DNA from: Sarcina sp. DSM 11001
GTDB lineage: Bacteria; Bacillota; Clostridia; Lachnospirales; Lachnospiraceae
Assembly: GCF_900101015.1 (NCBI RefSeq)
Contig: NZ_FNFZ01000023.1
Coordinates: forward strand, 1-64,000
Length of the DNA stretch: 64,000 nucleotides
Reading direction: 5' to 3'
Below are positions 4,071 to 29,448 of the stretch, piece after piece (within the stretch, counting starts at the first letter, position 1; each line of letters starts with the position of its first letter). The position numbers and the translations under genes were made by a program. The notes under the pieces were generated by a model. That model had not been told where the DNA came from and made no database searches. It saw nothing but the letters and a program-made list of their open reading frames with translations.

Positions 4071-4113
4071 ATGGTTTTTGAAAAATGCTGTTTCTTTCTT
4101 AAAAGTTCCTTTT

Positions 4114-4156
4114 TGTTGTAAATACAACAGATATGTTTGATTTATCATTCTATAAT
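4114..4156 (+). promoter_or_regulatory. hcp promoter with CRP/FNR-type palindrome at -41.5
   Basis: A perfect inverted repeat TGTTGTA-AA-TACAACA (4114-4129) lies upstream of a consensus -10 TATAAT (4151-4156). With a start about 7 bases after the -10 (near 4163) the palindrome centre falls at -41.5, the class II position used by CRP/FNR activators. No good -35 box exists, as expected for an activated promoter. In other bacteria hcp is controlled by CRP/FNR-family regulators such as HcpR or FNR (known); assignment to a given regulator here is inference. Confidence 0.65.
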
Positions 4157-10384: not shown

Positions 10385-10554
10385 GTTACTGTACACGCCC
10401 CCTCGAGGGGCGGAATCATTGCTTCGCAATGCAGTAACTTGCGTTCGCCCATGCTGAATTCGCTTCGCGAATGGGGCGAACGCAGTTCCACTCGGGTTTT
10501 TCGCGAAAAATCCGCGAAAAACGCCTCGAATTTCGAGGGGGTCTGTACGGTAAC
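10385..10554 (+). repeat. Family A modular palindromic repeat, copy 3
   Basis: Bounded by inverted ends GTTACTGTAC (10385-10394) and GTACGGTAAC (10545-10554). It carries the TTTTTCGCG core hairpin but a different side hairpin, built on GCGTTCGCCC and GGGGCGAACGC. It also has a CCCCCTCGAGGGG palindrome. Confidence 0.85.
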
Positions 10555-10593
10555 CGGCTTGAACCCGATTTGAACCCGAAGCCTTGTGGAGTC

Positions 10594-10622
10594 TTGAATC
10601 AGAGTCTGAAAGAGGATATAAT
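10594..10622 (+). promoter_or_regulatory. Promoter of the GNAT leader RNA
   Basis: -35 TTGAAT (10594-10599), a 17-base spacer and -10 TATAAT (10617-10622). The predicted start is near 10629, about 160 bases before the GNAT start codon. Confidence 0.8.
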
Positions 10623-10628
10623 ATGCTC

Positions 10629-10773
10629 GTAATTTAATATAGGTCATCGGAGGACAGTACGCCGCAGCGTAGGGGATCGTAAAGCGAAAGCTTTGCAGGC
10701 CGCCTGTCGGATAAGATGTCGAGTGAGCTCGGAACAATTGGCTTAAAAAGCCTTTTGCTGCCGGGCTTTTTTG
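10629..10773 (+). ncRNA. Structured leader RNA with attenuator-like ending
   Basis: After a strong promoter the transcript can fold a three-way junction: GACAG (10653-10657) pairs with CTGTC (10704-10708) and encloses hairpins TACGC-CGCA-GCGTA and AAAGC-GAAA-GCTTT (a GNRA loop). A further CGAG-TGAG-CTCG hairpin follows. The end can form either GGCTT-AAA-AAGCC (10740-10752) or a terminator AAAAAGCC...GGGCTTTTTT (10745-10772); the two share bases and exclude each other. It is not a riboswitch class I recognise: TPP, T-box, SAM, c-di-GMP, guanidine and yybP-ykoY consensus elements are absent. It may be a cis-acting riboswitch for the GNAT gene or a stand-alone small RNA. Confidence 0.6.
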
Positions 10774-10791
10774 TTGAAGGAGATTGAAAAA

Positions 10792-11343
10792 TTGAAAGAA
10801 ATTACTCTTACTCTACTCACAGGGAATGATAGGGAACAATTCATTCTTGATAATCAGTGCGCATTCAAATACGGGGCAATGGAAGAATTTGGAGAAAGAG
10901 ACAGTCACTTTGAGGAAGACGGTGAGATCATTTCCCGAAAGACCATTGAAAACAGCATCGACCAGGGTGTTGCCTACCGGATTCGTGAGGATGGGAGGAT
11001 TGTCGGGGGTCTTGTGCTGCAAATCAATGAAAAGACACACCACAATCATCTGGATCTTTTGTTTGTCAGCCCGAATGCCCACAGTAAAGGCATTGGCACG
11101 GCTGCATGGAAGTGTGTCGAATCGCTTTATCCTGAGACAAAAGCGTGGGAAACATGTACTCCCTATTTTGAGAAAAGGAACATCCATTTCTATGTTAATA
11201 AATGCGGATTTCACATCGTGGAGTTTTTCAACAGCCTCCATCCTGATCCCCGGGATCCGGAAACAGGAAATGCGGCAGATTTTGAAAACGGCGGGGAGAT
11301 GTTCCGGTTTGAAAAGGTCGTGAACTTGAAGACACGAATTTAG
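10792..11343 (+). CDS. GNAT-family N-acetyltransferase
   Basis: The product has a GCN5-related acetyltransferase fold. The core acetyl-CoA site is in 'HLDLLFVSPNAHSKGIGTAAWKCVESLYP' (R/Q-x-x-G-x-A-type loop, here HSKGIGTAA), followed by 'ETCTPYFEKRNIHFYVNKCGFHIVEFF', typical of the C-terminal half. The TTG at 10792 is chosen because AAGGAG sits about 10 bases upstream; a TTG at 10771 lies inside the terminator's T tract. The ribosome site begins directly after that T tract, so expression depends on read-through of the leader terminator. The acceptor substrate is unknown. Confidence 0.85.
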   Translation: MKEITLTLLTGNDREQFILDNQCAFKYGAMEEFGERDSHFEEDGEIISRKTIENSIDQGVAYRIREDGRIVGGLVLQINEKTHHNHLDLLFVSPNAHSKGIGTAAWKCVESLYPETKAWETCTPYFEKRNIHFYVNKCGFHIVEFFNSLHPDPRDPETGNAADFENGGEMFRFEKVVNLKTRI

Positions 11344-29320: not shown

Positions 29321-29332
29321 ATAGACAATTTA

Positions 29333-29416
29333 AAGGGGAGCTTGCGCAGGCAGGCTGAGAACGGGAGGTATGTCCCGGACCCATAACCTGATTTGGATAA
29401 TGCCAACGTAGGGAAA
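29333..29416 (+). ncRNA. TPP (thiamin pyrophosphate) riboswitch
   Basis: The THI element is clear: AGGGGAG at the 5' side, CTGAGA (29354-29359), ACCC before 'ATAACCTGATTTGGATAATG' and the closing CCAACGTAGGGAA. It is followed by a terminator hairpin and then thiM, the standard arrangement for repression of thiamin salvage and synthesis genes by TPP. Confidence 0.95.
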
Positions 29417-29448
29417 TATGCTGCTGCTTTTCATATGCAGGATTTCAG

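Follow-up and report, generated by a model that had tools for sequence, protein, structure and literature searches.

A structured leader RNA before acetyltransferase and exporter genes of gut bacteria, a candidate riboswitch class outside Rfam 15

Riboswitches of the yjdF class control efflux or detoxification genes. Genes of the same kind are targets of the guanidine-I, -II and -III riboswitches (PMC9788692). Guanidine-IV, also known as the mepA motif or GGAM-1, has been described (PMC7736828; PMC11611296) as a short leader aptamer that overlaps an intrinsic terminator; it is a proven ON switch (PMC7736828) and has two hairpins, an ACC:GGU kissing loop and a conserved terminator tip, GGUCUUAG. 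Its variant Gd4v, extremely similar to it in sequence and fold (features D1-D4), precedes a PRK07324 transaminase gene in over half of the cases and also GNAT and MATE genes, and is reported to be enriched in the gut (PMC9788692).

Here we analyze a leader RNA that precedes a GNAT acetyltransferase gene in the window, the 64,000-nucleotide stretch of Sarcina sp. DSM 11001 under study. The leader RNA resembles the guanidine-I, -II and -III and yjdF riboswitches in having efflux or detoxification targets. With guanidine-IV, it shares the aptamer/terminator overlap, MATE targets and common occurrence in Lachnospiraceae, and with Gd4v, GNAT and MATE targets, gut habitat and, in the case of the window, a hairpin-topped terminator. 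We consider it a putative transcription attenuator that acts in cis, most probably a riboswitch whose class is outside Rfam 15, and assign this reading a rough probability of 0.78. A first-pass annotation of this DNA had likewise proposed an unclassified riboswitch-like attenuator before the GNAT gene, a proposal that the comparisons below support in all but the detail of the attenuator, with no Rfam 15 match at the cut-off.

Layout and conserved fold of the leader

The leader comprises about 145 bases between the promoter and the end of the T tract (Table 1). The promoter proposed in the first-pass annotation is present, as is the T tract that it placed directly before the GNAT ribosome site. 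Near P1, a -10 box with at least 5 of 6 matches was present in 45 of 72 long-type loci (see below; drawn from the first 80), compared to 21 of 216 control windows. The most likely start codon of the GNAT gene aligns with the ATG of the orthologue in genome G043. The encoded protein has a single NCBIfam match (PRK10562, E 0.002, far below the cut-off) and none in PDB up to E 0.01.

Table 1. Features of the leader RNA and the regulated gene in the window
Feature	Position	Strand	Evidence or remark
Promoter: -35 TTGAAT 10594-10599, 17-base spacer, -10 TATAAT 10617-10622	10594..10622	+	sequence
P1 5' arm CATC	10645..10648	+	partner 10715-10718; T-A to C-G in 10/73 long-type sequences
P2 5' arm GACAG	10653..10657	+	partner 10704-10708; covariation in both alignments
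P3 hairpin TACGC-CGCA-GCGTA, loop CGYA near-invariant	10658..10671	+	comparative alignments
P4 hairpin GTAAAGC-GAAA-GCTTTGC, absent from short type	10679..10696	+	comparative alignments
Junction strand AGGCCGC, long type	10697..10703	+	alignment of relatives
P2 3' arm CTGTC	10704..10708	+	comparative alignments
P1 3' arm GATG	10715..10718	+	comparative alignments
P5 hairpin CGAG-TGAG-CTCG, proposed anti-terminator	10720..10731	+	A-U to G-C in 16/73 and 22/51 sequences
Predicted intrinsic terminator, overlapping P5: GAGCTCGG 10725-10732 with CCGGGCTT 10761-10768; T tract 10767-10772	10725..10772	+	terminator score 18 in the window
Terminator tip GGCTT-AAA-AAGCC	10740..10752	+	part of the terminator 10725..10772
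Ribosome site AAGGAG of the GNAT gene	10777..10782	+	sequence
Regulated GNAT acetyltransferase gene, start most likely TTG 10792	10792..11343	+	Pfam PF00583, E 5e-11

The fold occupies window positions 10645-10731 and consists of P1, P2, a three-way junction with P3 and P4, and the small hairpin P5. The three-way junction closed by GACAG/CTGTC, with its two enclosed hairpins, and the CGAG-TGAG-CTCG hairpin had already been drawn from the single sequence, and comparative alignments confirm both; P1 and two further pairs of P4, however, had been missed. When folded alone, the window leader is unremarkable (z = -1.21, with 22 of 200 shuffles folding equally well), so the case for the RNA rests on comparison.

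Two alignments were analyzed. In A4, which consists of 53 model-aligned matches (51 distinct) and accordingly leans toward the model, 95.6% of the cells form standard pairs, compared to 75.7% in shuffles and 29-39% with the partners slid; both partners vary in 23 of the 25 pairs (13.5 on average in shuffles, 23 reached in 0 of 500), and the covariation score is 0.411 versus 0.149. One A4 row, the 70-base partial copy L006, was nonetheless not taken as evidence, and neither was a 30-base match, L007. A7 consists of 73 pattern-selected long-type cores aligned with plain MAFFT, with no structure given. Here, 98.3% of the cells are paired, the covariation score is 0.346 versus 0.171, and both partners vary in 12 pairs (9.1 on average in shuffles; 12 reached in 2 of 500); further pair types are no more numerous than in shuffles (32 vs 31.5). 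The informative changes fall in P1, P3, P4 and P5 (Table 1), and RNAalifold predicts P1-P5 from A7 unaided. Thirteen of 80 loci were left out of A7: nine duplicates, one with an N and three where the start of P1 was not found, two of these being cut at the edge of the stretch and one carrying CGTC for CATC. Covariation and conservation in relatives, which the first-pass annotation had named as the check on its fold, are found in both the 51 distinct model-aligned and the 73 MAFFT-aligned sequences. On this comparative evidence, which is strong, the leader is a real structured cis-regulatory RNA.

The search pattern dictates many 3' columns of A7, the invariance of which is therefore not evidence. 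The pattern likewise fixes the junction bases AGGCCGC in loci L060-L178; the same bases are present in L002, L003, L008, L011, L057, L058 and L059, all found without it. A contact between the P3 loop (CGYA) and the P5 loop (UGMG) has no covariation support. By reading, the two loops of the usual short type, CGCA and UGCG, are perfectly complementary; we do not claim a kissing interaction, as the long type has CGUA with UGAG in 58 of 73 sequences.

Terminator and proposed switch

Of 118 long-type loci that could be scored (119 minus one too short), 114 have a terminator stem that starts inside P5 and scores at least 15, compared to 134 of 2360 shuffles. Because 15 was the lowest score among the first 79 loci (all 79 pass), a stricter limit of 20 was applied as well, which is reached in 74 of 118 loci and 14 of 2360 shuffles. 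A terminator of score 15 is lacking in L141, L158, L164 and L173. An earlier, lenient criterion was dropped, given that 513 of 790 shuffles passed it. When downstream sequence is included in the short-type alignment, RNAalifold chooses the terminator over P5. P5 and the terminator are both conserved and, as predicted stems, cannot coexist.

The switch stated in the first-pass annotation opposed GGCTT-AAA-AAGCC to a terminator formed by AAAAAGCC/GGGCTTTTTT, whereas relatives keep the stem GAGCTCGG/CCGGGCTT instead. GGCTT-AAA-AAGCC is only the tip of this conserved terminator, variable across the relatives of the window RNA, and the true competitor of the terminator is P5, through CTCG 10728-10731. 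In G043, a base change from CCGGGC to CCGAGC strengthens the pairing of GAGCTCGG, and for this reason we do not consider AAAAAGCC/GGGCTTTTTT to be the conserved stem.

Because the 5' arm of the terminator begins in P5, the folded aptamer and the terminator would be mutually exclusive, and the element is probably a ligand-induced ON switch. Under this scheme, transcription would start near 10629. Without ligand, the CTCG(G) strand would leave P5 and pair with CCGGGCTT, and RNA polymerase would stop near 10772; a small molecule bound by the core of P1, P2 and the junction would hold P1 and P5, block the terminator and allow the gene to be read. The candidate ligand would probably be an amine, toxic or a waste product, for which the downstream protein serves as acetylating enzyme or exporter.

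Some relatives (L039, L054, L056, L202 and L203) have another expression platform; by reading, their terminators use the core strand GATAA as pairing partner. In both platforms, a stable aptamer would mean read-through. The RNA in L202 and L203 (1501-1570) is deviant and precedes an MFS transporter gene; its terminator pairs with the core strand GGATAA.

Distribution and downstream genes

Within the genus, a search with a 171-base query detected the RNA in 5 of 62 genomes, one of them the genome of the window. In G043, G050 and G048, it precedes an orthologue of the window GNAT gene, and the copy in G054 is cut by the contig end. G048 also contains a partial copy elsewhere (L006, 1505-1591), with a 3' half unlike the usual core and terminator. 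In distant BLAST searches, the core was matched by the Selenomonas ruminantium plasmid pSRC2 (L008; E 2e-13, 80% over 97 bases). A weak match (E 0.1) came from a gut contig with a phage label; by reading, this contig has the same conserved strands, a simple hairpin replacing the three-way junction and a MATE-like frame downstream. On pSRC2 (L008, 3005-3232), the RNA is followed by an apparent short, broken MATE reading frame, and no gene is annotated there.

Model R1, built from five such sequences including that of the window, yielded 46 matches in 37 of 397 genomes of the family. The matches fall into two types: the long one contains P4 and measures about 93 bases, the short or medium one about 60-88 bases. 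A few matches have larger inserts. The long-type search pattern, CAGGCCGCNTGNYNGATAAGRTGTCG, matched at least 119 stretches (L060-L178) in the collection of bacterial and archaeal genomes; the viral collection gave no match. These matches are chiefly from gut Bacillota, many of them from ruminant gut samples, and include Oscillospiraceae, Lachnospiraceae, Erysipelotrichaceae with Solobacterium, Selenomonas and Gemmiger. Also among them are three Clostridium records, three Coriobacteria and one bin each of Anaerolineaceae and Victivallales; the last two could be misbinned. Six of the at least 119 stretches apparently coincide with family genomes already counted, so the two sets cannot count as fully independent. 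When the phylum was sampled evenly, model R2 found the RNA in 5 of 299 genomes, own genome included, which indicates that it is uncommon outside the favoured families.

The targets of 119 long-type loci (out of at least 119), assigned by motif, are GNAT in 83, MATE in 16 and without assignment in 20; the same count on the first 80 loci gave 60, 10 and 10, respectively. Pfam searches with 75 first downstream proteins, one from the window and 74 from the first 80 loci, identified Acetyltransf_1 in 50 and MatE in 10. For the short type, a gene was found for 44 of 45 hits, and 43 proteins were scanned, one gene serving two hits: ABC_membrane was detected in 19, MatE in 7, YunG-like in 6, Cytidylate_kin2 in 3 and MFS_1 in 2, with the proviso that these genes were chosen automatically as the longest frame, so some loci may be credited with the wrong gene. 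The targets are non-homologous (GNAT, MATE, ABC and MFS) but share one theme, acetylation or export.

Several individual loci deserve mention. A second GNAT family (motif MQEAF) is encoded downstream of the long-type RNA in L090, L107, L111, L123 and L124. The gene order in L041 is MarR, RNA, MarR, cytidylate-kinase-like, MATE, RNA, ABC, ABC. On the minus strand of L040, tandem copies of the RNA (2151-2233 and 2407-2469) precede one ABC exporter gene and are a possible tandem riboswitch; a third copy is located at 4078-4140. In the long type, the P5 loop is UGCG in 6 of 16 MATE loci and 5 of 83 GNAT loci, and UGAG in nearly all others, a bias that perhaps reflects lineage or ligand.

Searches of the genus and family produced 27 hits to homologues of the window GNAT. 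The RNA is present at 5 of these and absent from the 330 bases upstream of the 19 others that were read, one of which has a lone match to the 5' core; the remaining 3 hits are partial. The homologues without the RNA include hits of 76% and 71% identity, so the enzyme does not need the switch.

As the long and short types share the core, they may sense the same or related molecules. We regard as likely, if somewhat less so than the assignment of the window RNA itself, that the family is a new riboswitch class widespread in gut and rumen, a sensor of a toxic amine or xenobiotic with two subtypes, one with a three-way junction associated with GNAT and MATE genes, the other compact and located inside MarR/ABC/MATE export operons; the ligands of the subtypes may differ. 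If so, a class that governs both acetylation and export would suggest that a compound common in animal guts has to be neutralised by bacteria, and it would provide a testable substrate for GNAT and exporter genes that are as yet uncharacterised.

Known RNA classes and the nature of the effector

Searched against Rfam 15 at the cut-off, the whole window yields nothing except a TPP riboswitch elsewhere (29324-29432, above the Rfam gathering score). Unlike guanidine-I, -II and -III and yjdF, the leader alone has, up to E 5, a sole Rfam 15 match to a chance-level microRNA model (MIR2933, 14.9 bits vs a cut-off of 70, E 2.1). Two relatives, L008 and L009, have no match up to E 1, and nothing was found on the RNA in 16 further loci up to E 0.05. 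The same kind of search recognised SAM, cobalamin, tRNA and Guanidine-I, the latter in 7 of 10 sugE loci. No family reaches its cut-off on the leader or the tested relatives, and membership in Rfam 15 is accordingly rejected. No description of the motif was found in the main text of CC-licensed papers in PMC. Within these searches, the leader is a strong candidate for an orphan riboswitch absent from Rfam 15.

An RNA-binding protein rather than a small molecule could be the effector. Some copies adjoin MarR genes, as in L041, and proteins could contact the near-invariant loops CGYA and UGMG. We consider this unlikely, given that the contexts read have no regulator gene in common and that the conserved unpaired segments GGAG, GGGGAU, AGGCCGC and GAUAAG, although partly fixed by the search pattern, resemble a ligand pocket. 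Control of several unrelated target families is also more typical of riboswitches.

Assignment of the leader RNA to guanidine-IV as a divergent member, or to Gd4v, appears still less probable, even though the GNAT and MATE targets and gut habitat of the leader RNA are those reported for Gd4v (PMC9788692). Guanidine-IV-like RNAs were recovered before sugE, and three that fit the published guanidine-IV positions were used to build model R3, which matches in 51 of 299 genomes of the family, often, by reading, before MATE-like frames; in some genomes (for example, G166), such an RNA and the leader RNA occur side by side. There is a faint likeness between CAYCGGAG plus AAGRUGUCGAG of the leader RNA and CUACCGAG plus UUAGGUCUUAG of the sugE leaders. 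When run up to E 1 on 56 sources, 37 of them with the leader RNA, R3 nevertheless recovered only its own three members, two of them also in antisense, and R1 misses the three sugE leaders (best E 1, elsewhere). The guanidine-IV kissing loop with the conserved G-U and the G six positions later was not detected in the R3 and R1 searches. Guanidine-IV, first suspected from the mepA motif, was rejected on these two-way searches. A loose guanidine-IV regular expression matched 7 of 80 long-type loci, which by reading are P1 variants CACC/GGTG with no kissing loop.

The folds differ as well: guanidine-IV consists of two kissing hairpins and has a conserved terminator tip, whereas the leader RNA has a nested P1, a three-way junction, P5 and a variable tip. 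sugE is a guanidine-IV target, but the SugE family (PF00893) is absent among the 75 long-type and 43 short-type first downstream proteins. Gd4v, compared here by its description rather than letter by letter, is found mainly before the transaminase, whereas the transaminase Pfam family was detected at E 0.001 in 0 of 75 and 0 of 43 of these proteins. Given that the published description places Gd4v extremely close to guanidine-IV and that R3 misses the leader RNA, the latter is unlikely to be Gd4v. Because the targets overlap and the fold differs, the leader RNA could help identify what Gd4v binds, or reveal that RNA has solved a related chemical problem in a second way.

Ribosome-mediated attenuation through a leader peptide starting at RUG 10716, for which the RTG in the pattern-fixed P1 arm GRTG offers a possible start codon followed by conserved first codons, is highly improbable and was rejected on the widely varying length of the frame in 80 loci (median 31.5 codons, 10th-90th percentile 9 to 213), which often runs into the gene with no conserved stop or codon run seen, while the covariation of the helices is of the RNA type.

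Just upstream of the promoter, the window contains a GC-rich palindromic stretch (10385-10555) that belongs to a repeat family, with 47 matches in its own genome including itself, four long ones at 94-97%; the alignment with G043 starts only downstream of this repeat.
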